A stretch of DNA of 64,000 nt, taken from Sodaliphilus pleomorphus. GTDB taxonomy: Bacteria; Bacteroidota; Bacteroidia; Bacteroidales; Muribaculaceae. A program made the translations under genes and the position numbers. The notes under the pieces were generated by a model. It was not told the DNA's origin, did no database searches, and was given only the letters and a program-made list of their open reading frames with translations. The stretch lies in the NCBI RefSeq assembly GCF_009676955.1, contig NZ_CP045696.1, forward strand, positions 2,995,001-3,059,000, given 5' to 3'. Shown here piece by piece: positions 8,575-47,873 of this stretch (positions are counted from its first letter, which is position 1; each line of letters starts with the position of its first letter).

Positions 8575-8597
8575 CTCTCACAGCATGTGCAATCCTG

Positions 8598-9092: not shown

Positions 9093-9154
9093 TATAGTTA
9101 GAATTATTGGATATAATATAGTGTAGAAATAATTTGTCAATGATAGTACAATTT

Positions 9155-9886: not shown

Positions 9887-9903
9887 TTTCTGCATGTTTG
9901 AAA

Positions 9904-9911
9904 CAAAGGTA
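9904..9911 (-). promoter_or_regulatory. -7 element of the SDR gene
   Basis: Minus-strand TACCTTTG in the divergent region shared with gpmI; predicted leader of only about 12 nt. Confidence 0.55.
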
Positions 9912-9998
9912 ATCAAAAATGCGTGCTTGGCATTGTCAATAAATCACAAAAAGGCTAAAATATTGCCGACACCAATGCACTTTGTGGCTATTTTGTCG

Positions 9999-10006
9999 TA
10001 CCTTTG
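9999..10006 (+). promoter_or_regulatory. -7 element of gpmI
   Basis: TACCTTTG followed by C, 63 nt before the gpmI start; the intervening leader is AT-rich. Confidence 0.6.
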
Positions 10007-10069
10007 CACAATTGAAAATGTAGAGAAATAAAAGATTATAAAAATATATAAAGCAACATTATCACAATT

Positions 10070-11587
10070 ATGGGGAAAAAAGCATTATTAATGATCCTGG
10101 ATGGTTGGGGCATTGGCCCACACGACAAGAGCAATGCCATATGGAGCACGCCCACTCCCTACTGGGACAGCCTTTTGAAAGAATATCCCAACAGTCAGCT
10201 CAAAGCCTGCGGCGAAGACGTGGGTCTGCCCGACGGGCAGATGGGCAACAGCGAGGTGGGCCACCTCAACATAGGCGGCGGCCGCGTTGTGTATCAAGAC
10301 CTTGTAAAAATCAACAAGGCCATTGCCGATGGCTCGATACTGAAAAACAAAGAGATCGTTTCGGCTTATAGCTATGCCCAAAAGACGGGCAAGGGTTTGC
10401 ACATCATGGGTCTCACCTCGACTGGCGGCGTGCACAGCTCGCTCGCCCACCTGTTTGCCCTGTGCGACATTGCCAAGGAATACAAGCTCAAAAACGTGTA
10501 TCTGCACTGCTTCATGGACGGCCGCGACACCGATCCCGAGAGCGGCAAGGGCTTTATCAAAGACGTGGAAGAGCACTGTGCCAAGAGTGCAGGTGTGGTG
10601 GCCACTATCACAGGCCGCTACTACGCCATGGACCGCGACAAGCGCTGGAACCGCATCAAGCTGGCCTACGACCAGCTTGTGAATGGCGTGGGCAAGCAGA
10701 GCGACAACATGCAGCGTGCCATGCAGGAAAGCTACGACGAGGGCGTGACCGATGAGTTTATCAAGCCCATTGTGAACAGCACTGTCGACGGCCGCATCAA
10801 GGAGGGCGATGTGGTCATCTTCTTCAACTACCGCAACGACCGCGCCAAGGAGATAACCACCGTGCTCACCCAGCAAGACATGCCCGAGGAAGGCATGCAC
10901 ACTGTGAAGAACTTGCAGTATTACTGCATGACCCCCTACGATCCCACATTCAAGAATGTGCATGTGATCTTTGAAAAGGAAAATGTAAAAGACACCCTGG
11001 CCGAGTACTTGAGCTCCAAGGGCTTGAAGCAGCTGCACATTGCCGAGACCGAGAAATATGCACATGTCACGTTCTTCTTCAACGGTGGTCGTGAGGCACC
11101 ATTTGAGGGCGAGGACCGCATCCTCGTTCCGTCGCCCAAAGTGGCTACCTACGACCTGAAGCCCGAGATGAGCGCCTACGAGGTGAAAGACAAGCTCGTG
11201 GCTGCCATCGGGAGCGAGAAGTATGACTTTATCGTTGTCAACTATGCCAATGGCGACATGGTGGGCCACACGGGCGTCTACACTGCAATACAGAAGGCGG
11301 TGGTGGCTATCGACGACTGCGTGAAACAGACGGTGGAGGCTGCCAAGGCTGCCGGTTATGAGGTCATCATCATTGCCGACCACGGCAATGCCGACCATGC
11401 CATCAACGCCGACGGCACTCCCAACACAGCCCACTCGCTCAATCCTGTGCCATTTGTTTACATCAGCAACAACAAGAATGCCAGCGTAGAGAGTGGCCGC
11501 CTGGCCGATGTGGCTCCGTCGATCTTGAAGATCATGGGCCTCCCTCAGCCTGCCGACATGACTGGCAAGTGCCTTATTGTGGATTAA
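10070..11587 (+). CDS. gpmI: 2,3-bisphosphoglycerate-independent phosphoglycerate mutase
   Basis: A 505-aa cytoplasmic glycolytic enzyme that interconverts 3- and 2-phosphoglycerate with two manganese ions. The metal-binding start LLMILDGWG (Asp11), the phosphorylated Ser61 in [14 protein letters not shown], the substrate motifs GRDTDP and YRNDRAKE, and the C-terminal metal site ADHGNAD are all present. Length and domain order are normal for the family. It is transcribed alone from a TACCTTTG promoter and closed by a strong intrinsic terminator. Confidence 0.97.
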
Positions 11588-11618
11588 TTGATCTATTTCA
11601 TATACTCGTTTTTCAGCA

Positions 11619-11655
11619 ACGGCTTCACGCTTTAGCTACGTGGAGCCGTTTTTCT
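11619..11655 (+). terminator. intrinsic terminator of gpmI
   Basis: ACGGCTTCACG pairs with CGTGGAGCCGT (one G-U pair) around a 9-nt loop and is followed by five T. The stem sequence recurs almost unchanged in the terminator at 19719-19762. Confidence 0.85.
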
Positions 11656-11760
11656 TTTCACCTTGCCTGCGGCATGGCCATTTTTTTCACACACGCTCCT
11701 GTAGCTTGCAAGGCAGCGCATCGGGCTACAGTGGCGCTGTGCCTGGAAGCGTAAAATGTA

Positions 11761-11956
11761 GTATCTTTTTGCCTTGTTGTTTTATTTTCAGTTTTTTAAT
11801 AATTCATGAATAGCAAAATAAGACTATATAATTTTTTTCTGTGTGAGAAAAGCATTAAATTTGCATAGGAAAATAGGAAAATGCGAAAAACCTCTTCTTG
11901 ATTTTTCAATTACACAACTTGAAGCACTCTCGTTTCAGTTTGGGAATCTAAACGAC
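11761..11956. repeat. direct repeat copy 1 (promoter-bearing, ~196 bp)
   Basis: Matches 16701-16895 with about seven differences, including one 1-bp gap. Each copy contains TAAATTTG followed by C (11856-11863 here), a Bacteroidota -7 box. Copy 2 lies directly upstream of the 921-aa secreted protein gene and is likely its promoter. Copy 1 instead faces an intergenic region and the AraC-type regulator. The two copies bracket an accessory segment. Confidence 0.9.
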
Positions 11957-11961
11957 ATACC

Positions 11962-12054
11962 CTCGCCAAGTCGCAAAGTACGCCAAGATGCCGCAAAGAT
12001 TGTTCTTGTCGTTAGTTGAGCATAACCTTTGCGCTCTTTGCGACTTTGCGAGAG
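11962..12054. repeat. imperfect inverted repeat rich in CGCAAAG units
   Basis: The left arm near 11962-11999 (CTCGCCAAGTCGCAAAG and CCGCAAAG) is complementary to the right arm at 12027-12054 (CTTTGCG three times, then AGAG). It can form a long imperfect hairpin. Similar CGCAAAG/CTTTGCG palindromes occur in other Bacteroidota intergenic regions; no function is known to me. Confidence 0.6.
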
Positions 12055-12457
12055 GAAATTATCTATAATTGGGTAGAGAGGTCCATAACTCAAGGAAAAT
12101 AATCATAGGCAGTCTTTAAAGACTTGTGTAATACTTTGATAATTAATGTATTGTACGCATTCGCCGTAGGGTCGGGGGTTATCACCGTCCTACTGCCAAT
12201 AACGAGATTTAGAACAAATCCATATAGTTGAGAGGACTGAAACCCCCCCGCATCTATGACGGATGTGTGACGCCATAAGCTAATAATTTGCAGTTTACTT
12301 GCTTAATTTTATACCTTACATCATCATGCTACCGCACACTACTCTAATGTTAGTTGCAAACGGCTGTTGCAGCTGCCGTCTATACCATTTTCTTTCCTTC
12401 TTATAGCCTATTTTGAATAAATAGTTGTAATTTTGCGTCATACACGACGACGAAGGT
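12055..12457. other. non-coding region before the AraC-type gene
   Basis: About 400 bp with no credible gene. It contains a 14-bp perfect palindrome AGTCTTTAAAGACT (12111-12124). A -7 box TAATTTTG (12428-12435) lies 22 bp upstream of the regulator start. Nothing else was recognised. Confidence 0.5.
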
Positions 12458-14161
12458 ATGAAATACTTCAGAAAGACAAGTTTGGGTGATAATAAATGTG
12501 TGGCGATGGCACTGTCGGCACATCATCTGCTAACTGTCTGTCTGACCATCGTTCTGCTGGCCTTTGCCCCGTCGCTGACAGCCCATCCGCTGAGGGCCAC
12601 CACAACCGACATGGCAACTTATCGACGGTTGTCGGAGAAGTCGACGGCGATGCTGATGATGAAGGCCGGAAAGTTCCTCCATTCGCCGAACGGTCAGGAT
12701 AGTGCGCTGCTGTACTACACTATCGTTGCCAACCGCTACAACGACGACGGCATCGGCGACGCTGAGCGAAGGGAATGCATCACGGCCATGAACAACGCCG
12801 GATACCTCTATTATGCTTTCTACAATGACTACGACAAGGCTTACACCACTTTGCGACAGGCCCTGCAATTGGCCGCAAAGAGCGGCGACAAGTATTATGA
12901 GGCAATGATAAACCTCAACATGGCCAACATTAAGAGCGTATTCCTCGATGTGCAGGGCGACCAGCCACAATTGGCATGGGCGACGCTGCAATTATACCGC
13001 AAAGCCTTCTATCAGTCGGTGGAGATAAGAAACTGGCCGTTGGCGGTGGGGATTTTCACGAATATGCTTGATGAGAATTTCGTTGGCGAACCTTTGCTCT
13101 ATTCACAGCTAAGGAAGGATATCGCTGCTTTTAAGCGCATGCGCATTCCGGCCGGAACCCCGCTGCTCGACTTCACCAATGCAACGATAAGCTGTGTGGA
13201 AGCTATTCAGAGTCACGATTATGCCAGGGCCCTCGCTGCCACTTATGCCATGGAGCGGAATATCGAGTCGCGCGACACCCCCAAACGGTTTGCTGCCGAT
13301 GCCTTGGGACTGCGGACAAAGATTTTCAGCCTCATGCACGACGACCGGCGAGCCGTGAAAACGATGCTTGAGGGTGTCGACCTCTGTAAATCCAACCATA
13401 TCGACGACGGTCTCATGCACTTCTATCTAATGCTCAACAGGTTCTATCTTTCGCGGGGCGATAGTGCCAAGGCTCAGCGGTATCGCCTTGACTACCTCGA
13501 ATTGAAAGAAAAAATTCTCACGGAGAATAATCTTCAGAGCGTGTCGCGGTTGGAATTTCTCTACGATCTTCGTGAGGCGAACACTACCGTGGAACGGCTG
13601 ACGGAGCAGAAACACTGGTTGAATATAATCACGACCGTCATCATCGGCTTTGCCATCATCGTGAGTCTGTTGCTCGTTTTCCTCTTCCGGGGCTACCGCA
13701 GGGCCATGCGCACAAACCGCATCCTTTACCGCCACGTGCAGGACTCGCTGCACCTGGAGGAGGAAAAAACGAAATATAAGGGCTCGCGCCTCACCGACGA
13801 TGCCAAGGAACTGTTGGCCCAGCGCATCGATGCCGCGATGCAGAACACCGATGAAATCTGCAATTCTGACTTCAATCTCGACCGTCTTGCGGAGCTTGCG
13901 AACAGTAATTATAAAGAGGTGTCGCAGGTAATCAATGAACACTACGGCAAGAATTTCAAGGCCCTGCTCAACGAGTGCCGCATTCGGGAGGCCTGCCGTC
14001 GCCTTACCGATGCCAACTTCGGCCACTTGACCATTGAGGGGGTGGCCATTAGTGTGGGCATCAAGAGCCGCAGTCACTTCAACAGCTACTTCAAACAGGT
14101 GACGGGAATGTCGCCGTCGGTGTATCAGAAGATAAGCAAAGAGGAAGAAAAAGCCGATTAA
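12458..14161 (+). CDS. membrane-bound AraC-family regulator with TPR-like sensor domain
   Basis: A 567-aa protein. Residues about 20-43 form a signal anchor. Residues 50-385 are helical and TPR-like (AALLYY-type repeats such as ALLYYTIVANRYNDD and AYTTLRQALQLAAKSGD). A membrane segment follows near 386-410 (IITTVIIGFAIIVSLLLVFLF), then a C-terminal AraC DNA-binding domain with two helix-turn-helix motifs (LDRLAELANSNYKEVSQVI and GVAISVGIKSRSHFNSYFK). This is a common Bacteroidota design in which a periplasmic sensor controls a cytoplasmic activator. The likely target is the secreted protein gene 108 bp downstream. Its codon choice is less GC-biased than the chromosomal neighbours, consistent with acquisition. 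Confidence 0.88.
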   Translation: MKYFRKTSLGDNKCVAMALSAHHLLTVCLTIVLLAFAPSLTAHPLRATTTDMATYRRLSEKSTAMLMMKAGKFLHSPNGQDSALLYYTIVANRYNDDGIGDAERRECITAMNNAGYLYYAFYNDYDKAYTTLRQALQLAAKSGDKYYEAMINLNMANIKSVFLDVQGDQPQLAWATLQLYRKAFYQSVEIRNWPLAVGIFTNMLDENFVGEPLLYSQLRKDIAAFKRMRIPAGTPLLDFTNATISCVEAIQSHDYARALAATYAMERNIESRDTPKRFAADALGLRTKIFSLMHDDRRAVKTMLEGVDLCKSNHIDDGLMHFYLMLNRFYLSRGDSAKAQRYRLDYLELKEKILTENNLQSVSRLEFLYDLREANTTVERLTEQKHWLNIITTVIIGFAIIVSLLLVFLFRGYRRAMRTNRILYRHVQDSLHLEEEKTKYKGSRLTDDAKELLAQRIDAAMQNTDEICNSDFNLDRLAELANSNYKEVSQVINEHYGKNFKALLNECRIREACRRLTDANFGHLTIEGVAISVGIKSRSHFNSYFKQVTGMSPSVYQKISKEEEKAD

Positions 14162-14269
14162 AGGGTGCCAAATCATGTTTTGGCACATATAAGATGAAGA
14201 AATAAGCCCGATGCTGCTGTCTTTTCGTTACTTTTGCATCCGAAATTCGAAACAACAAAAGTTTTATTT

Positions 14270-15865
14270 ATGAAAAGAAGATTTACTTTGAACAAGCAGT
14301 TGGCAGTCCTGACCATCTTCCTGTCGGTCTGCTCGTCAGTATGGCCGCAGACCGCAAACCATGAGGTTGCCGACAACAGTCTGGCATCGATTCTGCCTGA
14401 CACCGTCATCACCAACCGCCCCGATGGCCGTGAGGTTATCTATTCGGAGTCGTCGCACAATATCTGGCAGAGCAACGGCACATTGGGTGAGGATAATATC
14501 GACCACAAAATGAAACAGATTGTCTTCGGTAACGACGGGTATGTGTACGTCCGCAACTTTATCGTCCACCTCTATGGTGTCGAGGGTTGGATTAAAGGCA
14601 TGATTGACGGCGACACCCTCCGTTTTCCACTGCCGCAGAAATACTATACGATGGGCAGCAGCTTCAGTCAACGCGACTATACTTTAATGGCCTTCGATAA
14701 GGTGCTCGTCGATGCCGGTGGCCAGATGGTCTATACGTATCAAACTGATACAACATATACGGAGATGGACTTCGTGATGCGTGACGACAGCATCATTTCC
14801 ACCGATCCGACAAAACTCATTGGTCTCGCCAATGCCACATACGGCAATACGTGGTCGCAGTTCGCTATGAGCAATGTCACTTACACAATCAACAAGGACA
14901 CTATGACACAGATGCCGGAGAACGTTACTCCCGAAACGTGGACCTTCGAGTATAAGCCAAGCTACGGTGACAGAGTGACAAGAATGGTCAGTGTTGCAAC
15001 AAAAGGTAATGAAATGTATATCAAGGGATTCAGCCAGAAGTTCCCCGATGCTGTAATCAAAGGACGTGTCGATGGCAATAAGATGGTGATACCGAACCGT
15101 CAGCTTTTGGCTCTTGACAAGAAGGATGAATATTATGCTTATCTGCTGACTTCGAGCGACACAATAGTCAAAGAGGAATCATATGGCGAGATGGTTGACA
15201 TTACGGAGCAGAAGATCCGTGATTCAATCTCCTTCGACTATGATGCCATCGACGGCACCTTAGTTTCGGCCGATAATTTGATTGATAATCACGGTACCGA
15301 TTCGCTATTCTATTATAATCTCTATAAGGCTGTGGCTTTCAACTACTTTGATCCGGTGGCTGCCACACCCGCAAAGCCGGAATGGATTGACTATTGGAGC
15401 TACGATACGAGCTCAAGTTTGTCATTCTATATCTACAGCAAGGATGAGAATGACAAGTTCATCAACCCTGACAGTCTTTATTATATCATCTACAACGATG
15501 ACCAGCCGATAACCCTGAAGGCAGCAGACTATAGCGTACTCGACAGCGATATGACCATGATTCCTTATGCTTCGGATGTGGCTTATGTCGACGGCAACTA
15601 CCATGGAATCACATTACATAATGTCAATGCCACCCGCATCGGCCTGCAGACGGTATATATTATGGGCGGTGAGACAAGAAACTCGCCGATAGTCTATTAT
15701 GGTAAGACCGACGGCATCTGCGCTGTCAAGGACAGTGAAGCAGCGAAGACAATCTATTATGACCTCTCCGGTAGGAAAACTTCAAATCCGTCGAAGGGCA
15801 TCTATGTGATGGTCGTGGAGCATGCTGATGGCTCGCGGTCGACAAGTAAAGTAATTGTCAAGTAA
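14270..15865 (+). CDS. secreted protein of unknown function with C-terminal sorting-like tail
   Basis: A 531-aa protein not recognised by function. The start at 14270 gives a signal peptide (basic KRR then TLNKQLAVLTIFLSVCSSVWPQ). The body is beta-rich and Tyr/Asp-rich with no visible catalytic motif. The end (IYYDLSGRKTSNPSKGIYVM, then a short Val/Lys-rich strand) resembles the short tails that direct proteins to the type IX secretion system or surface in Prevotella-like bacteria. A TACTTTTG box lies at 14229-14236. It follows the AraC-type regulator and has similar low-GC codon use, so the pair probably moved together. Confidence 0.75.
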   Translation: MKRRFTLNKQLAVLTIFLSVCSSVWPQTANHEVADNSLASILPDTVITNRPDGREVIYSESSHNIWQSNGTLGEDNIDHKMKQIVFGNDGYVYVRNFIVHLYGVEGWIKGMIDGDTLRFPLPQKYYTMGSSFSQRDYTLMAFDKVLVDAGGQMVYTYQTDTTYTEMDFVMRDDSIISTDPTKLIGLANATYGNTWSQFAMSNVTYTINKDTMTQMPENVTPETWTFEYKPSYGDRVTRMVSVATKGNEMYIKGFSQKFPDAVIKGRVDGNKMVIPNRQLLALDKKDEYYAYLLTSSDTIVKEESYGEMVDITEQKIRDSISFDYDAIDGTLVSADNLIDNHGTDSLFYYNLYKAVAFNYFDPVAATPAKPEWIDYWSYDTSSSLSFYIYSKDENDKFINPDSLYYIIYNDDQPITLKAADYSVLDSDMTMIPYASDVAYVDGNYHGITLHNVNATRIGLQTVYIMGGETRNSPIVYYGKTDGICAVKDSEAAKTIYYDLSGRKTSNPSKGIYVMVVEHADGSRSTSKVIVK

Positions 15866-15889
15866 CTGATTGCTAACAAGATAACGAAA

Positions 15890-15923
15890 ATGGGGAACTG
15901 CGCCTGTTGGTACAGTCCCCCAT
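15890..15923 (+). terminator. terminator-like hairpin after the secreted protein gene
   Basis: ATGGGG plus ACTG pairs with CAGT plus CCCCAT with one A-C mismatch, 25 bp after the stop codon. It is followed by an AT-rich but not T-only stretch, so termination is likely but not certain. Confidence 0.55.
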
Positions 15924-16069
15924 TAATCATATTATATTAATTGCGTTATGTGGTCTTCGAGACTTCTTCTTCCTCCTTTTGTCTTCATCCTCATTCTTAT
16001 TCAATTTGCTGGATGACAGACGTTGTGACATAGAATGTTACGGGGTTTCGTTCCACCGCTTCGTTAATC

Positions 16070-38527: not shown

Positions 38528-39010
38528 TTAATCAAATTTTTTTATTTCTTTTAATGAAATTTTTGCGAAGTGCGTATCAGTATCCCAATCGAGTTTGTCG
38601 TTTGTCTGTATGTCGGGCAACAGCAGGTCCTCTTTGTCGGGATGCTCTTTTAGTATTGCTTCGTCGCCTATGGAGAGACGCGAGCGTATTTTCTTGAAAA
38701 ATTTCACTTCGGAATACTCAATGCGATTGTCGGCTTCGATCGACTGTATCGCCAAGTCTGCTATCATCAATTGTTCCTGGTTGGAAAGTTTTGCCTCGCC
38801 CAAATCGCTAAGGTAGGACTGAAGGAACCTTGCACCATTCTCGTTGATTTCGGCAATCCACTCATTGAGGAGTTCTTCTACTTCAAGGTCATCAAATGTG
38901 TTGCTTGTTGATGCCATATTACGTATCAGTTCTACTTCTTCGTTTGCAATATCGCCATCGCAGGCAATACAGCAGAAGATAGTTTTTAGATATAATTCTT
39001 TTGTATTCAT
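38528..39010 (-). CDS. TerB-like protein, last gene of the Hsp70/kinase-AAA operon
   Basis: A 160-aa acidic, helical protein. The pair of acidic motifs ACDGDIANEEVELI (residues about 16-30) and EADNRIEYSEVKFFKKI (about 92-108) is characteristic of the TerB fold, whose acidic sites can bind metal. TerB-like domains recur in bacterial stress and envelope-signalling systems. It starts 12 bp after the kinase-AAA+ gene and is clearly part of the same transcript. It may act as an adaptor for that ATPase; this is inferred from position only. Confidence 0.7.
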   Translation of the reverse strand: MNTKELYLKTIFCCIACDGDIANEEVELIRNMASTSNTFDDLEVEELLNEWIAEINENGARFLQSYLSDLGEAKLSNQEQLMIADLAIQSIEADNRIEYSEVKFFKKIRSRLSIGDEAILKEHPDKEDLLLPDIQTNDKLDWDTDTHFAKISLKEIKKFD

Positions 39011-39022
39011 GATTTTACTGTT

Positions 39023-40795
39023 TTATTCAAAGCCAATGCGAGGTCTTCTCTCCACTGGAGTTTTACCTTCCATTTGTTGTCTCATTTTATCATATTTTTC
39101 TAATTCTGAAGCAGTTAGAGACGGAGTCGTCTGCTCAATTTCTTCTTCCAGAATTTGCATTGTAATTCGGCTGTGATTTTTAAGCGCTTTGCGTGCAGCA
39201 TCGTTCACTATTTTGCTTATGTCGGCCGATACATAGTTTGCCGTCAGGTCGGCAAGATGGCTGTAATCTAAGCCGAAATCGTAGGGGCGTTTAGACAAAT
39301 ACAGCTTGAAGAGGGCTTCGCGGGCACTCTTGTCGGGCACACCAACGTAGTACTTGTTTTCCAGCCGTCCTGACCTGAGTATTGCAGGGTCTATCATATC
39401 GGGGTAGTTGGTTGCCCCGACGACAAACACTCCTTTCTCGCCTGTCCTGTCCATCTGAGCCAACATTTCATTTACAGCACTTCGCGACATCTCATGCACA
39501 TCGCTGTGTCGATCAGGAACAAGCTCGTTGATCTCGTCGATAAAGATGATGGTGGGTGCATTTTCCTCGGCATCTTTAAATAGCTGAGCGATATTTTCCT
39601 GTGTAGCATTTACATAGCGGCTTTTCAATGTGGCGGGGGTGATGCAGATGAAGTTAAAGCCTACTTCCTCGGCAAAATGTTTAGCAAAGAATGTTTTGCC
39701 ACATCCCGGTGGGCCATAAAGCAGCATGCCGTTGGGTATCGTTACGCCATAGCGCCGATATTCCTCGGGATTATTCAAGGGCTCAATGATTTCTTCCATC
39801 ATTTGGCGTTTCAAGTTGTCCATGCCGGCGATGGCTGCAAATCCCTCTCCCTCCCTCTTGGTGGGTTTAGCGATAGTTGCCTTTGACGAGTCCTGCTGCG
39901 ACATAATTTTCCGCTTGGTTGACTGTTTGTCAACTTTTATTTCTCCGTCGATGGCTTTTATAAATTCATCGGCTGTCTGGAAGCGGTCTTCGGCATCGTA
40001 GCTCAGCGCTTTAGCAATCGTATTTTTCAGTTGGTCATCAAGCTCGTACTTGTCGAGGTCGTTGAGCTCAAGTTCTTTGTCACGTTCCGACAATATGCTG
40101 TCGATGTCGTCTTGATTGTGGCTTTTGTCGATGTCTATAAACCATGGCAGTTCGCCATAGAGCAATTGATACATCATCACTCCAACTGAATATAAATCAG
40201 TCTGGACCGAGCTCACCCCCGAAAATCTTTCGGGGGCAAGATAGAAGGGGTTCAGGTCTTCCAAGTTTGGCTTGGCTGGTCTTTGGTTCAAGAATCGGGC
40301 TTTGCCAAAGTCAATGAGTTTCAAGTCTTGCAAGTCACCCACAAGATTCAACAGCACGTTCTGAATTGTAACCTCATTGTGAATGATGGGCACTGGCAAA
40401 GAGTGCAGAAATAACAATGCCGACAATACCGATTTTGCAATGGTCTTAATCTCATAAACACTGAAGTTGCCATCTCTGATGATGCGTTGAGACAGCGTCT
40501 CTCCGCTCACAAATTCAGTCACAATCCATGTATACTGGCTGCCGCCCATTATCATGCTTCCTGAGTCGATATAGCGACACAGGTTGTGATGTTTCAATTG
40601 CTTGGTAGCCTCTACCTCTACCACTCTTCCCTCATCGTCAATCTGATTGCGGTTGAGCTTTGAGTTGTTTATGAGCTTCAGAAAACGAGTTTTGCCATCG
40701 GCATCTCGCACACGGTAGGTCTCGGCATAGGCACCCTGCTTATGCGGGAATACTACTGTGAATGAATCTATTTTATCGTTCTTCTTGAAATGCAT
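39023..40795 (-). CDS. protein kinase-like domain fused to an AAA+ ATPase
   Basis: A 590-aa cytoplasmic protein. Residues 10-280 are a Ser/Thr kinase fold: Lys40 in RFLKLI, DFG as IDFGKAR (Asp162), APE as YLAPERF, and DLYSVGVMMYQLLYGELPW. The catalytic loop reads HNEVTIQN (139-146), so the usual Asp and Lys of HRDxK are Glu and Thr; it may be a pseudokinase or an atypical enzyme. Residues 315-570 are an AAA+ domain like FtsH/Cdc48: Walker A GPPGCGKT (361-368), Walker B IIFIDEI, sensor ATNYPD and an arginine-finger-like LRSGR. It sits 69 bp behind the Hsp70 gene. The fusion suggests that ligand binding or phosphorylation state gates a remodelling ATPase. Confidence 0.88.
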   Translation of the reverse strand: MHFKKNDKIDSFTVVFPHKQGAYAETYRVRDADGKTRFLKLINNSKLNRNQIDDEGRVVEVEATKQLKHHNLCRYIDSGSMIMGGSQYTWIVTEFVSGETLSQRIIRDGNFSVYEIKTIAKSVLSALLFLHSLPVPIIHNEVTIQNVLLNLVGDLQDLKLIDFGKARFLNQRPAKPNLEDLNPFYLAPERFSGVSSVQTDLYSVGVMMYQLLYGELPWFIDIDKSHNQDDIDSILSERDKELELNDLDKYELDDQLKNTIAKALSYDAEDRFQTADEFIKAIDGEIKVDKQSTKRKIMSQQDSSKATIAKPTKREGEGFAAIAGMDNLKRQMMEEIIEPLNNPEEYRRYGVTIPNGMLLYGPPGCGKTFFAKHFAEEVGFNFICITPATLKSRYVNATQENIAQLFKDAEENAPTIIFIDEINELVPDRHSDVHEMSRSAVNEMLAQMDRTGEKGVFVVGATNYPDMIDPAILRSGRLENKYYVGVPDKSAREALFKLYLSKRPYDFGLDYSHLADLTANYVSADISKIVNDAARKALKNHSRITMQILEEEIEQTTPSLTASELEKYDKMRQQMEGKTPVERRPRIGFE

Positions 40796-40864
40796 ATCTC
40801 AAGTTTCAATGTTGTGTCAATGTAAAAATGAAACATTCATGCAATCAATGGCTTGATGCGATCG

Positions 40865-43399
40865 CTATTTCAGCAGGCCTCCTGCATTCTGGGCCTCTTC
40901 GTTGGGCATCAAGTTGATTAACTCGCGCACGATGGGAAGGAGCGTTTCGGCCGATGGCTGGTCGTTGATTTTTTCTAATCCATTGTTGATGAGCTGTCGG
41001 GCACGTGACGAGTCTTTCCAGCGTATTGATCCAAATCGTCTGTGGCAGTCGTTGATGAGGCCCATGCATTGATACACCATAGTCAAGTGCACAAAGAGTG
41101 AGGTGATTTGTTCGAGCACTTCATGCGCAAGCTTTGTGTCTTGAGCGCGGATGACGTTGTCTACTTGCGTGCGAATTTGATTGACCAGTTGACCAGTTTT
41201 CTCGTTGCCCAGGTCATGTTGGGCCGACTCGAGACGGTCAAACTCTTCACGCAGCGTCTTCTCCATGCGTTGCCACTCGGTGCTGTCTTCAAGCTCCTCG
41301 ATCTTGCGCAGCAGCTCCTTCAAGTTAGATTGCGTTCTCATGGGGTCGTTTCCATTTGAAGCCAGTTCTCTCACGTCGTCGAGATGCTTGTTCAGTTCGT
41401 CTACGGGGATGCCCGATTCGGCCAATGTGTTGATGCTGCGTTGGGCCGGAGCGAGCTCCTTGTTTACCCACGCAATGGCATCTTCGGCCGACTCTCGCTT
41501 GCTCAAGTCAAGCTCTTTCTTCACCGTGAAATCGGCATCCGGAAAATACACCTCCATGGTCATCATCTCCGAAGAGTCTACCTTGAGCGTGATCTCGGCA
41601 CTTGAGTTCTCGGGGATGAGTTGCTCCACATCGTCGCCTGTCACAGTCACACTTGAAATTTGCGTGTACAGAGCAGCAGTCTTCCCTTCGGCCTCCAGAC
41701 CCGAGACTTGATATACGGGTATCGAGAGAACATCGGCTGGGACACCCGGGCGTAAAGCTTGGGTTGTTTTGCGGCCGTTTACAACGCCCACTGCAGGCAG
41801 CGGTTTGTTCTTCTCCAATCCCTTGGCAGGAAGAAACACGCCTCGCTTTTTCTGCTCGCTGTAAATTTCAATGCCTATGTTGTAGGGTAGCGGTGCCGCT
41901 CCCACCTTTACACCTTGTATGATTGTGAACTCGGCAGGGAAGGTTTCCACAGCATTGCCCTGCTGGTCATAGGCCTTGATCTTGAAAGTGTTGGGTTTGC
42001 CTTCGAGCAGGAAGGCTTCGATCACATTTCCATTAGCATCGACTGTTGTCCGGTCGCTGCGCCACGCTCCGTCGGCGCGTTGCAGCTCGATCGACAACTC
42101 TGCTGGGCAATTTTGTCCGGTCTTCTTTGGATCGATGCTCACACTCACCCATTCAGATTCTTCTACCGATGTCGACTCAAATCCCACTGTCAAGAATACA
42201 ACATCGTTTTTGGCTTCTTTCTTGATGTCGTCCTCATTGAAATTGGCATCGATGGTAGAGGCATAGAGGGCTGCACCACGAGCAACAGCCGTCATTGGGT
42301 TGATGCTGGTGTCCACGTTGGGTGTCACCTCTTTCTTGAGCATGTCGCGAATGATGGGAGAGTAGGTAGGACCGCCCACAAGGATGAGCGACGACAGGTT
42401 GTCGCCAGTCATTCCGTTTCGCTTTAGCAACGTTTTGCACAAGTCGACGGCTTTTTGGTATTGCTCGCCTATGGCGTCGATGAGTTCGGCCTTGGTAACC
42501 GTGATTTCGAGGTCGATTTCCTCTCCATTGTCGTCTTGCCCCAGGTTCAGGTTGCGATCGTAGGTGGAGTAGTCGGTACTGTCGGCAAACGACAATGCGA
42601 TGCGCATTTCTTCGGCCGGGCCTTTCAATGCGTCCATCAGCGCTCTTTTCTTCCATTCGGTCGTCTTGTAGCTGTCGAGGCTGTAATCTTCCTCCAGTCG
42701 TGGCAGTAATATTTTGGTTACTACCGCTTCGTCAAGATTTTTTCCGCCAAGGTAGTTGTCGCCTTCGGTGTCAAACACGGTGAGAATGCCGTCTTCCACC
42801 TTCACCAGGGCTGCGTCAAATGTGCCGCCACCAAAGTCAAACACAAGCCACTTGCCGTCTTTCTTTTCGCTCGACAACCCATAGGCCATGCAGGCAGCGA
42901 TGGGCTCTTGCAGCAGTTCGCATTGCTTGAAGCCTGCCATGTGAGCGGCTTTCATTGTGGCGTCTTTTTGGATGGCTGTAAACATGGCAGGCACTGTGAT
43001 CACTATCGAGTTTACGGTCTCGTCGTTGATGAGGCTTTTCAATTCTTTCAACACCTCGGCCGAAAGCTCCTCGGGCGAATAGTCGGGTTTGGGCATGTTC
43101 TCGTTAGAATACTTCTTGTCAGAGCCCATTTCGCGTTTAAACTCCAAGTAGCCATATTCTTTGGGTGGCACCCCCTTGCTTAGGGCAGTGATGGCATCGC
43201 TGTAGACCGAGTCTTTTGCCTTCATTCCGATGCGTATCGAGCGGTCGCCTTTCTTGTTCTTTGAGAAGTATACGCACGAGGGGAGTGTGTCCATTAGATT
43301 CTTGGTCTGCTTGATGACCGACTCTCCGTTTTCCATTCTTGCAATAGCCGAGTTGGTTGTACCCAGGTCAATGCCATAATCGATTTTAATTCTTGCCAT
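40865..43399 (-). CDS. large divergent Hsp70 (DnaK-like) chaperone
   Basis: An 844-aa Hsp70, about 200 residues longer than housekeeping DnaK. The nucleotide-binding domain is complete: GIDLGTTNSAIA, LVFDFGGGTFDAALV, LVGGPTYSPIIRDML. It contains an insertion around residues 240-300. After residue ~390 come two beta-sandwich-like stretches rather than the canonical substrate-binding domain, then a helical C-terminus (LNKHLDDVRELASNGNDPMR onward) with no EEVD-type end. It is encoded 14 bp behind a GrpE-like membrane protein and shares an operon with a J-like membrane protein. The likely job is a specialised, membrane-recruited chaperone ATPase. Clients are unknown. Confidence 0.9.
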   Translation of the reverse strand: MARIKIDYGIDLGTTNSAIARMENGESVIKQTKNLMDTLPSCVYFSKNKKGDRSIRIGMKAKDSVYSDAITALSKGVPPKEYGYLEFKREMGSDKKYSNENMPKPDYSPEELSAEVLKELKSLINDETVNSIVITVPAMFTAIQKDATMKAAHMAGFKQCELLQEPIAACMAYGLSSEKKDGKWLVFDFGGGTFDAALVKVEDGILTVFDTEGDNYLGGKNLDEAVVTKILLPRLEEDYSLDSYKTTEWKKRALMDALKGPAEEMRIALSFADSTDYSTYDRNLNLGQDDNGEEIDLEITVTKAELIDAIGEQYQKAVDLCKTLLKRNGMTGDNLSSLILVGGPTYSPIIRDMLKKEVTPNVDTSINPMTAVARGAALYASTIDANFNEDDIKKEAKNDVVFLTVGFESTSVEESEWVSVSIDPKKTGQNCPAELSIELQRADGAWRSDRTTVDANGNVIEAFLLEGKPNTFKIKAYDQQGNAVETFPAEFTIIQGVKVGAAPLPYNIGIEIYSEQKKRGVFLPAKGLEKNKPLPAVGVVNGRKTTQALRPGVPADVLSIPVYQVSGLEAEGKTAALYTQISSVTVTGDDVEQLIPENSSAEITLKVDSSEMMTMEVYFPDADFTVKKELDLSKRESAEDAIAWVNKELAPAQRSINTLAESGIPVDELNKHLDDVRELASNGNDPMRTQSNLKELLRKIEELEDSTEWQRMEKTLREEFDRLESAQHDLGNEKTGQLVNQIRTQVDNVIRAQDTKLAHEVLEQITSLFVHLTMVYQCMGLINDCHRRFGSIRWKDSSRARQLINNGLEKINDQPSAETLLPIVRELINLMPNEEAQNAGGLLK

Positions 43400-43413
43400 A
43401 GTATATGTTTCTT

Positions 43414-44349
43414 TTAAATGTTTTGACTCACTACGATTTCGGCTGGCTGTATCATCTTGCCATTGTAGTTCACTTGCATCTTTATCATGCCGGTAATCAC
43501 TCGTTTTCCTTCGGGCAAACTCTCGTCGGGGACAAACCGCGTTTGGAATTGCATGCCGTCGTTGTAGTCTTGCCCAATCAGGCTGATGATTTCATAGCCA
43601 TAGGCTTTCACATTGTTTATCATTCTGTCTTTGGCCTGTACAAGCTGTTTGTATCCTCTCACCGATTTATCCATCTTCGACAAGTTGGTTTCAATGCGTG
43701 CGATTTCCTGAGCCAGCTTTATGACCAAGGAGTGGTCGGGTTCAGCTTTGGCGTTGCCTTTGGCCGAGGCTACACTCAGTTGTTTGTCGGCAATTTGCAG
43801 CAACTCGTTGTCGAGCTTGATTGAGTCTTCTTGCAGTTTCTCTTGTGCGCTTTGCAGTTTTTCTTGGGTCTTGCGCACGTTGTCGATAGTGTTCTCCATC
43901 GAGAGCTTTCCACTCTTCACGCGTCTCAAGATAATCCACGCCACTGCAAAGAGAGAAATAATGACCAGCAATGTGACCACAACTCCCCACAATGTGCGGT
44001 TGTTGATTGCATCTTGACTCGAAACGAGATTTTTATTGGTCTCGCTTATTTTTCCGTTTAGCATTGCATTGTTGCTCTTTTGCTCACTGGCCAGGTCGCC
44101 AGTGAGCGCCTTCAGGCTATCAACCTCGAGCTGCAATGCTTGGTTTTGCTGCTTTAAGTTGTCGATTTTTTCTTGGCTACGTTTCACATCACGTGATGCC
44201 TCCTCCATATCGCGTTTCAGCTTGTTGTGACTGTCGCTCAATGCCTCTATCTTGCTTTCAAGATGCTTGTAACCATCTTCGTGCTTCTCACCCTGTGCAG
44301 CAAGCGAGCAAGCTACAATTATTGTGACAATAAATAGAATTTTTCTCAT
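43414..44349 (-). CDS. membrane coiled-coil protein with GrpE-like C-terminal domain
   Basis: A 311-aa protein. An N-terminal signal (MRKILFIVTIIVACSLAAQG; a lipobox-like IVAC is possible) leads to a periplasmic coiled coil (25-115). A membrane segment follows at 119-141 (TLWGVVVTLLVIISLFAVAW), then a cytoplasmic coiled coil (145-245). The last 60 residues (FVPDESLPEGKRVITGMIKM, then NYNGKMIQPAEIVVSQ) follow the pattern of the GrpE head domain, where GrpE has a GY-x-LNGR-x-LRPA-x-VVV strand. GrpE exchanges nucleotide on DnaK, and the next gene is an Hsp70, so a membrane-tethered exchange factor with a periplasmic sensor is a good hypothesis. The homology is remote. Confidence 0.65.
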   Translation of the reverse strand: MRKILFIVTIIVACSLAAQGEKHEDGYKHLESKIEALSDSHNKLKRDMEEASRDVKRSQEKIDNLKQQNQALQLEVDSLKALTGDLASEQKSNNAMLNGKISETNKNLVSSQDAINNRTLWGVVVTLLVIISLFAVAWIILRRVKSGKLSMENTIDNVRKTQEKLQSAQEKLQEDSIKLDNELLQIADKQLSVASAKGNAKAEPDHSLVIKLAQEIARIETNLSKMDKSVRGYKQLVQAKDRMINNVKAYGYEIISLIGQDYNDGMQFQTRFVPDESLPEGKRVITGMIKMQVNYNGKMIQPAEIVVSQNI

Positions 44350-44379
44350 AAGTTTATGGTTTTAAATGTTTTTGCAATA

Positions 44380-46218
44380 TCAATAAGTGTTATACTCAGA
44401 TGCGTCTGACGCCTCTTCGTCAGGGTCATCTGATGTGTCATAATAATAAATGTATGATTCCGATGGCTCTGCCGAAGATTCTGACACCGAGGCATCGGCC
44501 GATGCATCATCGTCATTATCATTATCATATGCTGGCGCCTCGCTGTAAGATTCAGAATATTCTGGGGCTTCAGGAGCAGCCGAAGAAAATTCGGCTGCCG
44601 AAACTTCTTCGGTAACAGGAGATGTCTCTTCTTCGGTTGCTGAGTCTCCATTAGGCATACCAGCGAATGCGGATATGAATACCATTGCAAGAATGATAAT
44701 AACAAAAATGGCAATTAACCATCCAACATAAGAATTTGATTTCTTTGATGATCCGGAGTCAGAGTCTGTAGTCGGCGTTAATTTGCTGGCATTTGAAAAT
44801 GGCATACTAAAAGTCGAGATGCCCAAATCTTCACACATGCTCTTTAGTGTTGACCTGTTAGGATTGTAATGCTCTTTTCTATAGTCGTCTTCCATGTCAA
44901 ACTCATCGATAAGCTTTGTTGCATCCCATGCTTCCTTAAGCACTTCCTTCAATTTGAGCTGAATTAAGAATAGTTTTGCCTCCCGTCTTTCTAACAAGTT
45001 GTCGAATAACGGGTCGTCAGTTATTTGTTTTTGTACTCCATTAACCTCGGCAATAAGATTGCTCATTGCGTTTCTTACCACGACTGTCGAGATGTGTAAG
45101 TAATAGTCATTATAGGATCCTAATTTGCGCTTTATCGACTGCAAGTGAGGCCTTGTGTTCTTGAGCAAAGTCACTGCATGGCATATCTTGTCGGGCAATT
45201 TGCAGTACTTGCGCAACTCTTCGTGTATTGCCTTGTCTTCGGCAAAGACTTCGGCTGGTGGTAAATTGTCGATAATTTTTTGCAGTATGTCGACGTTTTC
45301 TTTGCATCGGTCTTTTGCCATCTGCCCAACGACAATGCTGAGCGCGTATTTTTGTAGTTCCATGGCTTTGATAGCTGCATCGGGTTCCTCTGAGTCATTG
45401 TAGTAGTCGATGCCGCATTGCAAAATTTCTTTACCAAGTTTGTCGGCGATTAGCTGGTATTGTAAATCGCCAGCAGGCAACATCTTTTGTAACTGAAGTA
45501 GCGGGTCTCTTGTGGCTTCTTTCAAGCTTAATCCCGCTTTTAGCCGGGCTTGGGGGCCTTTGTTTCTCGACTTTTTTGCTACGTCTATTGCATTTTGTAT
45601 AGCCTCGACAAGGGGTTTTACGGCTTTTTCGGCAATGTGAGCTCTCCAGCTGCTGTTGGTTATGCTCGTGAGCAAGGTGCTGGTGTCGACTTCTGTGGCA
45701 AGGGTATCAAGAAAATCGAAGGCCAAGGCAGTTGCATCAACATTCTCTCCGCCTCCTGTGATTTCAGTCACCAGCTCGTTGAGATAGTTGCTGTTGCCGT
45801 ACAATTGCTCGGCTTGTGACAACGCGGTTGAGAAATCATTTTGAATCAACGCACACACCGTGAGGTTCTGTAACGATGAAGCGCAAGTTTTTTTCATCCA
45901 TATCGCCTTTGCTTCCTCGATTTTGCCCGCCACGAGGTGCTTGAAGGCAACGCTGTCGAGAGTAGTGACGTTGACAAACCAAAATAGGGCATAGTGCAAT
46001 TGGTCTTTGGGTAGTGTTAACTTTGATTCAGCTTCGGCAATGGTAGCCTCGTCACGGTCTATAGAAGTGAGATACTGGGGCAAGTCCAGTGGGTAGGAAA
46101 CCTGTTTGCCCACTTTCAAGAAAGCCTTCAGTTTGTTGTGGTTTGCCATGCGCTCCTTGGTTGGAGAGTTGGCATAAACACCAAGCAGTCGATAAGGATT
46201 TTTTTGTAGTATGTCCAT
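44380..46218 (-). CDS. membrane protein with J-like N-terminal domain
   Basis: A 612-aa protein starting the operon. The N-terminus (ILQKNPYRLLGVYANSPTKE, then RMANHNKLKAFLKVGK) resembles the first two helices of a J domain (NPYxxLGV, basic helix II) but has no HPD motif. A long helical, TPR-like region follows (residues 90-480). Next are one membrane helix near 497-519 (SYVGWLIAIFVIIILAMVFI) and a ~90-residue Ser/Asp/Glu/Tyr-rich acidic tail, predicted periplasmic. The GTG one codon upstream of ATG 46218 is an alternative start. With the GrpE-like and Hsp70 genes 30 bp and 1 kb downstream it completes a DnaK-DnaJ-GrpE-like set. Whether it stimulates the Hsp70 without HPD is open. Confidence 0.65.
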   Translation of the reverse strand: MDILQKNPYRLLGVYANSPTKERMANHNKLKAFLKVGKQVSYPLDLPQYLTSIDRDEATIAEAESKLTLPKDQLHYALFWFVNVTTLDSVAFKHLVAGKIEEAKAIWMKKTCASSLQNLTVCALIQNDFSTALSQAEQLYGNSNYLNELVTEITGGGENVDATALAFDFLDTLATEVDTSTLLTSITNSSWRAHIAEKAVKPLVEAIQNAIDVAKKSRNKGPQARLKAGLSLKEATRDPLLQLQKMLPAGDLQYQLIADKLGKEILQCGIDYYNDSEEPDAAIKAMELQKYALSIVVGQMAKDRCKENVDILQKIIDNLPPAEVFAEDKAIHEELRKYCKLPDKICHAVTLLKNTRPHLQSIKRKLGSYNDYYLHISTVVVRNAMSNLIAEVNGVQKQITDDPLFDNLLERREAKLFLIQLKLKEVLKEAWDATKLIDEFDMEDDYRKEHYNPNRSTLKSMCEDLGISTFSMPFSNASKLTPTTDSDSGSSKKSNSYVGWLIAIFVIIILAMVFISAFAGMPNGDSATEEETSPVTEEVSAAEFSSAAPEAPEYSESYSEAPAYDNDNDDDASADASVSESSAEPSESYIYYYDTSDDPDEEASDASEYNTY

Positions 46219-46285
46219 CACTGGGTTTCGTTTTATTAATGGTCGCTCGGCTCCAGGGTCGACAAAACTCTCTCGTGATTAACTA

Positions 46286-46323
46286 CAAAAAAGACGTGGA
46301 GCCAATTTTGCCGCTCGCTCCAC
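46286..46323 (-). terminator. intrinsic terminator ahead of the J-like gene
   Basis: Minus strand GTGGAGC (46317-46323) pairs with GCTCCAC (46296-46302) and is followed by GTC and six T, 68 nt before the J-like start codon. Its 5' arm is also the partner of 46615-46620, so the two structures exclude each other. Confidence 0.75.
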
Positions 46324-46640
46324 AGTGTAAAGGCTCTGGCATCGCCCAAGTTGTCGAAACGAGCAACGCCAAAAGCCCCACGCGTGATGCCAGTGTATGT
46401 TCTGTTACCCTGCCATGTCGGCCGAGTGCACGATTACACTCGATGCCAAGGGGTAGGTTGTATTATACATTGTTCATCGCTATGAGGCGTTTCCGTTGCT
46501 TGGCTCTTGACAACTTATGCTCGAACTGCCAGATTCTTACACTGTCGGAACCAAAGCGTACAGTTACGCCTTTCAGTTATATGTAGTGTGTTTACCCTCG
46601 CCCTCTGCCCTCGATGGAGCTAAAGGCTAGTGAACTCACA
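46286..46640 (-). ncRNA. candidate structured leader RNA of the Hsp70 operon
   Basis: About 355 nt without a reading frame. On the minus strand nested helices are visible: TGGAGC 46615-46620 with 46317-46322; ACAGTGTAA/TTACACTGT (46537-46545 with 46322-46330); TCTGGCA/TGCCAGA (46527-46533 with 46335-46341); AAGTTGTC/GACAACTT (46509-46516 with 46348-46355); AGCAACG/CGTTGCT (46494-46500 with 46362-46368). Inside is a hairpin CGAGTG-TAATCGTG-CACTCG (46423-46442) closed by TACCC/GGGTA. A -7 box TATTTTTG lies at 46644-46651. The RNA ends in a T6 terminator. tmRNA and RNase P signatures are absent. It is either a stand-alone RNA or a regulated leader. Confidence 0.6.
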
Positions 46641-46643
46641 TTG

Positions 46644-46651
46644 CAAAAATA
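46644..46651 (-). promoter_or_regulatory. -7 element for the structured RNA / Hsp70 operon
   Basis: Minus-strand TATTTTTG followed by C. No -33 TTTG is evident at the usual distance. It lies 62 bp from the IS30 end, so the insertion has not removed it. Confidence 0.5.
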
Positions 46652-46713
46652 AGAAATTTATTTTATTGCTGTCATTATTTCTTTTAACTTTTTTTTGTTC
46701 GGCGCAGGGGCGG

Positions 46714-47873
46714 GGCGGATTCCAGAAGCAAGTGCAAAGTTACGCTATTTTTCTTTAATCATGTCTTTGGGCTTTCGAAATCCGTTTTTCTTTCTTGGCC
46801 TGTTGTTTAATTTTTCGATGATGCTCTTGACATATAGCCTTGAAATTCCCCTAAAGTCCGTCTTCTTCGGAATATATTGCCTGATGAGCCCGTTCATGTT
46901 CTCGATAGCTCCCTTCTCCCACGAGCAGTACGGATGTGCGAAGTAAACTTTCGTGTTAAGTTCCCTCGCAATGATTTCGTGTGCGGCAAACTCCGGCCCG
47001 TTGTCTGTCGTTATCGACCTTACAGGCAACCCGCTCTCCCGTATGAGTCTCACCACGGCATATGCCAGTGGAACGGCCTGCTTTCCCGTATCGAGTTTCT
47101 CCATGAGCATAAAGCAGCTCCTCCTCTCAACCAGAGTAACGATGGCACCTTTGCCTTCCTTTCCTACGATGGTGTCCATCTCCCAGTCTCCTATGGTCTG
47201 TCCATAGTCCGTTTCCGGTCTTTCGTCAATGGAGAGGCGGTTGGGAATATGCGCCTTGGTGGTAAGCAAGGACTTTTGCCTTGGTCTGCCTCCATGCCTG
47301 AGGTGCTTTCGGATGTTGTCCCCGTAATGTGGGGAAAGGGCCGCTATCCAGTTGTATATGGTTGACTTGGACACCGTGATGCCCTCTTTCTTGCCAAGCC
47401 ATCCGGCGACTTCCTCCGGCGACCACTGCTCCTTACGGATAAGTTCAAAAACACGGCTGCGTACATAGGGAGCGATACGGCGATTGCCAGGTGTCCTGGC
47501 CTTGCGTCGTTTGACTTTCAATACGGCCGTACGTGCGTCATAAACGCCTTTAGCATTAGAATTACGCCTTCGCTCACGAGAAACCGTGCTTACTGACACA
47601 CCAATAGTCTCGGCTATGAAACTAAGTGAGAATTTCGTTTGGAGTAGCACACTTATTGTGTATCTTTGCTCCGAGGTTAATTGTTTATACATCACAATAC
47701 AAAATTAATTAATCTTAGGGAGGGGAACGAAAGATCTCCTCTTTTTTTGTATTGCTTAAGTTATCCGCCAATGCTCTTTGGGGGCTTCGCGCCCCCAGCC
47801 GCAAGGCAAACCTCCGCGGTGTTTTTCATGTTTTAATGCACCGCAGAGTTTTGCACTTCTAATTGGAATTAGC
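46714..47873 (-). mobile_element. IS30-family insertion sequence, copy 1
   Basis: 1160 bp, same length and same encoded protein as the copy at 60332-61491 in the opposite orientation. The ends are GCTAATTCCAATTAGAAGTG and GGCGGATTCCAGAAGCAAGT; they share ATTCCA and AAGTGCAAA as terminal inverted repeats. Boundaries were set by where the two copies diverge. The flanks are CCGC-rich on both sides, so the short target duplication cannot be read with certainty. Confidence 0.9.
46745..47695 (-). CDS. IS30-family transposase (copy 1)
   Basis: A 316-aa transposase. An N-terminal helix-turn-helix (SFIAETIGVSVSTVSRERRR) and a second one near residue 90-115 precede the DDE core: Asp in GDWEMDTIVG, Asp in TTDNGPEF and Glu in EKGAIENMNGLIRQY. 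The protein is identical to that of copy 2, so at least one copy moved recently. It appears intact and probably active. Confidence 0.95.
   Translation of the reverse strand: MMYKQLTSEQRYTISVLLQTKFSLSFIAETIGVSVSTVSRERRRNSNAKGVYDARTAVLKVKRRKARTPGNRRIAPYVRSRVFELIRKEQWSPEEVAGWLGKKEGITVSKSTIYNWIAALSPHYGDNIRKHLRHGGRPRQKSLLTTKAHIPNRLSIDERPETDYGQTIGDWEMDTIVGKEGKGAIVTLVERRSCFMLMEKLDTGKQAVPLAYAVVRLIRESGLPVRSITTDNGPEFAAHEIIARELNTKVYFAHPYCSWEKGAIENMNGLIRQYIPKKTDFRGISRLYVKSIIEKLNNRPRKKNGFRKPKDMIKEK

Follow-up and report, generated by a model that had tools for sequence, protein, structure and literature searches.

A membrane-tethered, dedicated Hsp70-AAA+ module in Sodaliphilus pleomorphus and other Bacteroidota

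Gene layout and protein domains

We analyzed a stretch of 64,000 nucleotides from Sodaliphilus pleomorphus (Muribaculaceae, Bacteroidota; contig NZ_CP045696.1, positions 2,995,001 to 3,059,000), hereafter termed the window. It was taken from a genome of a single contig of 3.34 Mb. Five open reading frames (ORFs) on the minus strand of the window encode, in order, a membrane protein with a J-like domain, a GrpE-like protein that spans the membrane, an Hsp70, a fusion of a kinase-like domain to an AAA+ ATPase and a TerB-like protein (Table 1). A first-pass annotation had described them as tightly spaced genes with gaps of 30, 14, 69, and 12 bp, and all five ORFs were found to be present with exactly this spacing. 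The right edge that it gave, 46640, overshoots the module, the first gene starting at 46221 with a GTG codon followed by ATG.

In a profile comparison with hhalign, residues 1-95 of the J-like protein aligned in register with 20 canonical DnaJ sequences (E 1.9e-4, probability 47%, score 25.9). None of 200 column shuffles of the profile reached this score, the best scoring 20.8. The best profile match of the domain in the PDB was 2cug (E 0.51), which we take to be a J domain. A DnaJ family was found for the window protein neither in Pfam (both of two matches seen) nor among the NCBIfam matches listed. The function of a J domain depends on the HPD motif. This motif was lacking from the first 150 residues of all 57 J-like ORFs, that of the window among them (0 of 69 have it if duplicate loci are included), and therefore the earlier description of a "complete" Hsp70 machine was overstated. 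Invariant positions within the J-like domain were N8, P9, G14, R56, and W81, with N119 just behind it (41-row alignment), and a second conserved block was located at approximately residues 260-275. A C-terminal membrane segment was found in 33 of 41 J-like proteins of 440-800 aa, a count that leaves out seven paralogues of more than 800 aa with longer C-terminal parts and ten ORFs of less than 440 aa. In 23 of these 33 proteins the membrane segment is the end of the protein, and the 86-residue acidic tail of the window protein is the longest observed. A periplasmic segment, proposed earlier for the J-like protein, is not supported as a general trait of the family. Two further weak, closely spaced J-domain matches are located away from the module in the genome of the window (G000:C1:559344-560161).

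For the GrpE-like protein the last 116 residues aligned to the C-terminus of GrpE (E 2e-5, probability 77%, score 37.3) when 36 GrpE sequences from the phylum were used, and none of 200 shuffled profiles reached the score (best 21.2). With a narrower set of 17 close GrpE sequences the E-value was 0.016, and 2 of 60 shuffles equaled or exceeded the score. As a yardstick, the J-like and TerB-like proteins compared to GrpE gave E-values of 0.032 and 0.21, respectively. No GrpE family was found among the best 25 of 45 Pfam matches or among the NCBIfam matches listed, and a PDB profile search of the protein found no GrpE chain. The GrpE family PF01025 was matched by 4 of 40 GrpE-like members, weakly (best E 0.011). 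The resemblance of the two proteins to DnaJ and GrpE, which the first-pass annotation had offered as a matter for fold comparison, was thus supported at the level of profiles, and with it a dedicated Hsp70 with partners of its own.

A transmembrane segment precedes the GrpE-like head in all 40 members, and the N-terminal hydrophobic segment exceeded the threshold in 23 of 40. Together with the membrane segments of the J-like proteins this supports the proposed membrane anchoring. The C-terminal side of the transmembrane segment was the more positively charged in 30 proteins, with nine ties and one protein of the opposite charge distribution. By the charge rule this places the head probably in the cytoplasm and the N-terminal coiled-coil probably in the periplasm.

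The ATPase part of the Hsp70 is well conserved; ten checked positions with known roles in DnaK were invariant in 32 of 32 sequences. A DnaK-type substrate-binding domain was not found directly behind the linker, where an insert of approximately 105 residues intervenes. Behind the insert a resemblance to the substrate-binding beta domain was weak, yet in register (hhalign E 0.005, probability 7%). A phage origin was rejected as far as scans of phage records and viral contigs reach. The best 20 of 46 phage records matched the ATPase part of the Hsp70 only, none of the 46 covered 80% of the query, and the insert region had no match among phage records.

In the kinase half of the fusion protein the catalytic Asp of HRD is kept in 2 of 35 sequences and replaced by Glu in 25, including that of the window. 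The DFG Asp is kept in 29 and lost in six, and the VAIK Lys and the HRD His are present in all 35. Because the catalytic Asp is so rarely kept, the term "kinase-gated" in the earlier description went too far. Judged by its residues, the domain is best termed kinase-like and degenerate; a Glu in place of Asp would lower, but not exclude, activity. The AAA+ half is of the FtsH/Cdc48 type with intact motor residues. The Walker A Lys, the Walker B Glu, the sensor Asn, and both Arg are found in 35 of 35 sequences and the Walker B Asp in 33, and the Walker A Thr is kept in 31 and replaced by Ser in four. No protease family was found among the matches listed.

The TerB-like protein reached 17.4 bits against a Pfam cut-off of 24.4. 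In the PDB its profile matched 2h5n (E 6e-5 over 39 positions) and, at E 0.017, 2ou3, an entry titled tellurite resistance protein. A homologue from a named plasmid carries a TerB family annotation. Altogether, the description of a membrane-tethered, dedicated Hsp70-AAA+ module stands.

Table 1. Positions of the module genes and their domains in the window.
Feature	Position	Strand	Basis
J-like membrane protein, 613 aa, first gene of module	44380..46221	-	ORF, conserved family, DnaJ-profile match of N-terminus
J-like domain without HPD, residues 1-95	45937..46221	-	hhalign
Transmembrane segment, residues 494-527, followed by 86-residue acidic tail	44641..44742	-	Hydropathy
Membrane-spanning GrpE-like protein, 311 aa	43414..44349	-	ORF, family alignment
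N-terminal hydrophobic segment, signal-peptide-like, residues 1-23	44281..44349	-	Hydropathy
Predicted periplasmic coiled-coil, residues 24-114	44008..44280	-	Pfam and PDB coiled-coil matches, charge rule
Transmembrane segment, residues 115-147	43909..44007	-	In 40/40 members
GrpE-like head, residues 196-311	43417..43764	-	hhalign to 36 GrpE sequences
Hsp70, 844 aa	40865..43399	-	Pfam HSP70, E 4e-62, residues 9-409 only
Nucleotide-binding domain, residues 9-383	42251..43375	-	Ten checked positions invariant in 32/32
Insert of ~105 residues between ATPase and substrate-binding parts, approx. residues 395-500	41900..42217	-	No meaningful match to canonical DnaK
Region aligned to DnaK substrate-binding beta domain, approx. 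residues 503-620	41540..41893	-	hhalign, weak
Kinase-like/AAA+ fusion, 590 aa	39023..40795	-	Pfam, family alignment
Kinase-like domain, HRD Asp replaced by Glu	39974..40738	-	Pfam protein kinase, 5e-34, family alignment
AAA+ ATPase core, FtsH/Cdc48-like	39341..39727	-	Pfam AAA, 1e-37; NCBIfam CDC48/FtsH
AAA lid	39164..39271	-	Pfam AAA_lid_3, 1.7e-6
TerB-like protein, 160 aa	38528..39010	-	Pfam TerB, E 0.0056, below cut-off

Conservation, distribution and neighbours

The five genes form a conserved unit. With the J-like protein as query, 16 loci were retrieved from named genomes in one scan (loci are given L numbers and genomes G numbers), and 14 of them keep the five-gene order. Of the two exceptions L009 meets the end of its contig, and L006 has a shortened Hsp70 and neither kinase-AAA+ nor TerB. 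One of the 14, L017, has the kinase-AAA+ gene split into two ORFs. Gene calls in the loci of relatives are mechanical ORFs, many of the loci are contigs of metagenome-assembled genomes, and the counts of five genes in order tolerate tandem J-like copies and inserted genes. Loci from further genomes and one plasmid were added to give a wider set and a duplicate was dropped (L047, identical to L011). This set holds 45 loci with Hsp70, and 35 of them had enough flanking sequence on both sides to be assessed. All five genes were found in order in 24 of the 35 assessable loci and in 29 of all 45, so that homologous Hsp70 genes do not generally lack these neighbours, the finding that the first-pass annotation had named as speaking against a common unit. 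That all 35 have the J-like gene follows from its use as the query. Six more stretches had a J-like gene without Hsp70.

A search from the Hsp70 side, with a profile of the insert and substrate-domain region, was made in 225 genomes of the family to remove the bias of the J-like query; the profile contained copies from some of these genomes. The Hsp70 subtype was found in 13 of the 225 genomes, in all 13 within about 5 kb of a J-like match. Four of the 17 genomes with a J-like match had no Hsp70 match (G028, G045, G089, and G167). The complete five-gene set was present in eight of the 225 genomes (the window, L031, L032, and L034-L038).

The genome searches were aimed at Bacteroidota, some of which, gut species included, carry the module; two loci are labelled Clostridia and their modules resemble those of Bacteroidota. 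The J-like family is large, with 1963 proteins at E <= 0.001 among 7998 scored candidates. A J-like match was found in 17 of the 225 family genomes and, at the same cut-off of E <= 1e-10, in 12 of 392 genomes from the order; for the phylum the figure was 7 of 392 (E <= 1e-5). Each count includes the genome of the window, and some matches are to partial J-like genes or to ones that stand alone. Fourteen same-genus stretches upstream of zapB, with lengths between about 2 kb, where the contig ended, and 13 kb, contained no module gene. The full order is kept even in another class of the phylum (L062), where the kinase-AAA+ protein is 40% identical to that of the window. For the same protein the identity was 70% to Odoribacter and 41 and 39% to the same-genus loci L040 and L041, respectively.

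On a quick tree of the Hsp70, which has three long branches, the same-genus L041 was placed in a set of three rows with 100% support, the window being excluded. The Odoribacter Hsp70 grouped (98%) with copies from Bacteroidaceae and Prevotellaceae. The family label f1 required six changes on this tree; we used only the same-genus copies as tree evidence, since named Prevotella loci, possibly f1, carry no f1 label. The genome of the window encodes a canonical full-length DnaK elsewhere, along with GrpE and DnaJ. The module is accessory and patchily distributed, in the manner of acquired genes.

Divergent versions were also observed. L045 and L059 have no detectable GrpE-like gene, and L044 and L059 no detectable kinase-AAA+ and TerB genes nearby. 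These three may reveal the core of the module. Tandem J-like genes, two or three per locus, were seen in L009, L012, L015, L036, L039, L040, L053, and L055, and some of them encode proteins of more than 900 aa with extended C-terminal parts.

Between the Hsp70 and kinase-AAA+ genes, where the window has only the 69-bp gap, nine loci hold one or two additional genes (L016, L032, L034-L037, L049, L050, and L054). At least one hydrophobic stretch was found in the inserts of all nine, near the C-terminus in four. The inserts of L032 and L034 are alike, as are those of L035, L036, and L037, and that of L016 is weakly like that of L037. This insertion point resembles a cargo slot that takes up accessory proteins associated with the membrane. 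An extra gene between the J-like and GrpE-like genes was found in three loci (L011, L031, and L019), and the inserts of L011 and L031 contain DUF6602. Six other inserts were scanned (L016, L019, L032, L035, L036, and L049) and none had a match over the Pfam cut-off.

Some copies of the module have neighbours of defence type (BREX, TIR, NACHT, and restriction-modification), which are hand-picked examples. A full module (L030) is located at 8539-16064 of the 144-kb plasmid pHALHY02 of Haliscomenobacter hydrossis. On one side brxL, pglZ, and an McrBC gene adjoin it, and on the other a SIR2 gene lies past two WD40-repeat genes and a hypothetical gene. TIR genes lie immediately next to L038 and, at a distance of a few genes, near L015; L061 has a type I methyltransferase as neighbour and L032 a PDDEXK DUF1016 nuclease. 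At L064, where the kinase-like domain keeps HRD, the neighbour is a NACHT-FGE protein with a weak N-terminal match to DUF4062 (L064:7531-10533). DUF4062 is reported as an antiphage NADase in a 2026 preprint (PMC13174449).

Of ten picked neighbour proteins six had no PADLOC match at 1e-10, among them the TIR protein of L038. The flanks were further compared to controls from genomes carrying the module or a J-like gene. The flank set comprised 232 proteins around 44 loci, the BREX-bearing plasmid locus lying outside it, and 230 were scanned (the two left out are a protein of 2,225 aa and a TerB-like protein that belongs to the module); of 262 control proteins, 232 were drawn, of which 111 were scanned and 121 were not. 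The families are the best 25 of 38, 106, and 46, without assignment to proteins. At E <= 1e-15 the matches listed for the flanks included PDC-S02 (three proteins), type I methyltransferase, SoFic, DpdF, PsyrT, and others, and those for the control a type III CRISPR locus, a reverse transcriptase, a type IIG enzyme, and others.

Known systems and proposed function

The module was compared to known chaperone and defence systems. DnaK, DnaJ, and GrpE form a bi-chaperone disaggregase with ClpB, and like this system the module combines an Hsp70 with J, GrpE, and AAA+ components. It differs from it in that the AAA+ protein is FtsH/Cdc48-like and not an Hsp100, the Hsp70 carries the insert and the co-chaperones are in the membrane. 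GrpE is a soluble partner of DnaK, and an open-access phrase search found no membrane-bound GrpE by title. We know of no other sign of Hsp70 nucleotide exchange being controlled from outside the cell membrane.

Among PADLOC models, those of IetA match the AAA+ half and those of MAD6 the kinase half, which is a likeness at the domain level only. The other four proteins had no match to the IetA or MAD6 systems among the matches listed. Overall, PADLOC gave domain-level matches for the kinase-AAA+ protein (best 25 of 39), weak ones for three others and none for the TerB-like protein, and the protein set of a known antiphage system was not found at the system level.

GAP1-N2 GTPase conflict systems also have an accessory cluster with its own HSP70, GrpE, and DnaJ-domain protein (Kaur et al., 2020). 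According to PMC7159879, these systems have a core of a GAP1-N2 GTPase and FNIII proteins, are found mainly in actinobacteria and firmicutes, and their HSP70-GrpE-DnaJ theme is predicted to act in conflict with invaders. In contrast, the module described here has kinase-like/AAA+, TerB-like, and membrane-spanning GrpE-like proteins and is found in Bacteroidota. No GTPase family was found among the matches listed for the five proteins; the neighbours were not screened for GAP1-N2. DjlA of E. coli is a single membrane-anchored co-chaperone with J and TerB-like domains. According to PMC11709261 it triggers the Rcs envelope response, for which it requires its J domain together with the ordinary DnaK and GrpE. 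Unlike DjlA, the module has its parts in separate genes, lacks HPD and has a dedicated Hsp70 and GrpE-like partner. For bNACHT25, PMC12169576 shows that a host J/Hsp70 chaperone pair can be needed for phage sensing; bNACHT25 relies on the ordinary host chaperone without such a module. DjlA is a precedent for an envelope response triggered through DnaK and GrpE by a membrane-bound protein of J/TerB type, and bNACHT25 one for J/Hsp70 chaperones in phage sensing. We found no description of the five-gene composition in the open-access literature, judged by titles and abstract openings among the matches listed.

We consider a mobile remodelling machine below the membrane, which answers an envelope or phage insult, to be the most likely function. 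In this interpretation, to which we give a probability of about one half, the accessory, patchy module builds an Hsp70-AAA+ remodelling complex under the inner membrane as a conflict response to envelope insult. The five conserved genes, the intact ATPase residues of Hsp70 and AAA+, the membrane-spanning GrpE-like protein, the J-like protein without HPD, and the degenerate kinase-like domain are what the sequence shows of it. The Hsp70 would bind and release a client under the membrane. The GrpE-like protein, with its coiled-coil outside and its nucleotide-exchange head inside, would couple the state of the envelope to the rate at which the Hsp70 releases the client. The J-like protein would be a scaffold or regulator and not a stimulator of the ATPase, and the kinase-like domain may serve the AAA+ ring as a client or adaptor module, while the ring would pull apart or switch the client handed on by the Hsp70. 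The trigger is guessed to be an insult to the envelope such as phage entry, a toxin or a surface attack, and the system would therefore be one of conflict response and not of housekeeping. It is a more tentative suggestion that the GrpE-like protein is a transmembrane nucleotide-exchange factor, which would read the periplasm with its coiled-coil and control, across the membrane, the ATP cycle of the private Hsp70. The client would pass to the pseudokinase-AAA+ ring, and the whole would be a chaperone-based transmembrane signalling machine that spreads between strains and belongs to bacterial immunity.

Several observations weigh against this interpretation. No toxin, nuclease or other effector family was found for the five proteins among the matches listed (Pfam, PADLOC, NCBIfam). 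The similarity to DnaJ and to GrpE is seen in profile comparison only, at the probabilities given above; the Pfam DnaJ model matched none of 41 J-like members. Neither the GrpE-like protein nor the Hsp70 insert region had a confirmed relative in two pattern scans of viral contigs. Partial variants occur among the 35 assessable loci, with GrpE-like genes in 33, kinase-AAA+ in 30, and TerB in 25. On the Hsp70 tree the window and the same-genus L040 are not separated within a set of 21 rows (83%), and L044, which shares the set of L041, is a long branch. Finally, the 230 flank proteins did not stand out against the 111 controls in PADLOC, and a defence-island enrichment was rejected; none can be claimed, because the PADLOC result gives the best 25 families and does not identify the protein.

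The strongest alternative is that an extra Hsp70-AAA+ machine serves membrane proteostasis in some niches and extracts, refolds or clears damaged membrane or envelope proteins without any role in conflict, acting like DnaK with ClpB or like FtsH minus its protease. We regard this as possible, at odds well short of even. It agrees with an intact FtsH/Cdc48-type motor that has no protease family among the matches listed, with the intact ATPase of the Hsp70, with the lack of an effector gene and with flanks not enriched in defence families. For a housekeeping function, however, a J-like match in only 17 of 225 family genomes would be unusual, as would a same-genus copy placed apart on the tree and neighbours such as BREX, TIR, NACHT, and restriction-modification genes. 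It is unlikely that the module is an assembly chaperone for a surface or secretion machine encoded elsewhere, with the variable inserted membrane genes as clients. The hydrophobic stretches in the inserts of nine loci would fit such a role, but most loci, including the window, have no insert at that position. The model of the first-pass annotation, a complete Hsp70 machine whose envelope signal goes to an active kinase gating the AAA+ ring, is more doubtful still. The kinase fold is clear and its VAIK Lys and HRD His are conserved throughout, but the catalytic Asp is lost in most sequences and the DFG Asp in some, and no J-like ORF has HPD. That the five are chance neighbours without joint function is very improbable, since the full order is kept into another class of the phylum (L062), even if some loci lack the TerB, kinase-AAA+ or GrpE-like gene.

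A membrane-spanning GrpE-like family beside a private Hsp70 would allow nucleotide exchange on the Hsp70 to be controlled from outside the cell membrane. The module would also be a compact, testable case, in a major gut phylum, for chaperones as infection sensors, a proposal made in PMC12169576.

DNA upstream of the module

The G+C content of the module is 44-50% compared to 57-58% on the rny side, but values just as low occur elsewhere in the window. The DNA upstream of the first gene (46230-46660) is present as a single copy in the genome and was for this reason rejected as a repeat. By eye, one of its translated frames resembles an ORF that precedes the module in L031. A transposase-like ORF (46745-47695) with helix-turn-helix and integrase-core (rve) domains lies immediately upstream of the module, and we take it to be an IS30-type transposase.

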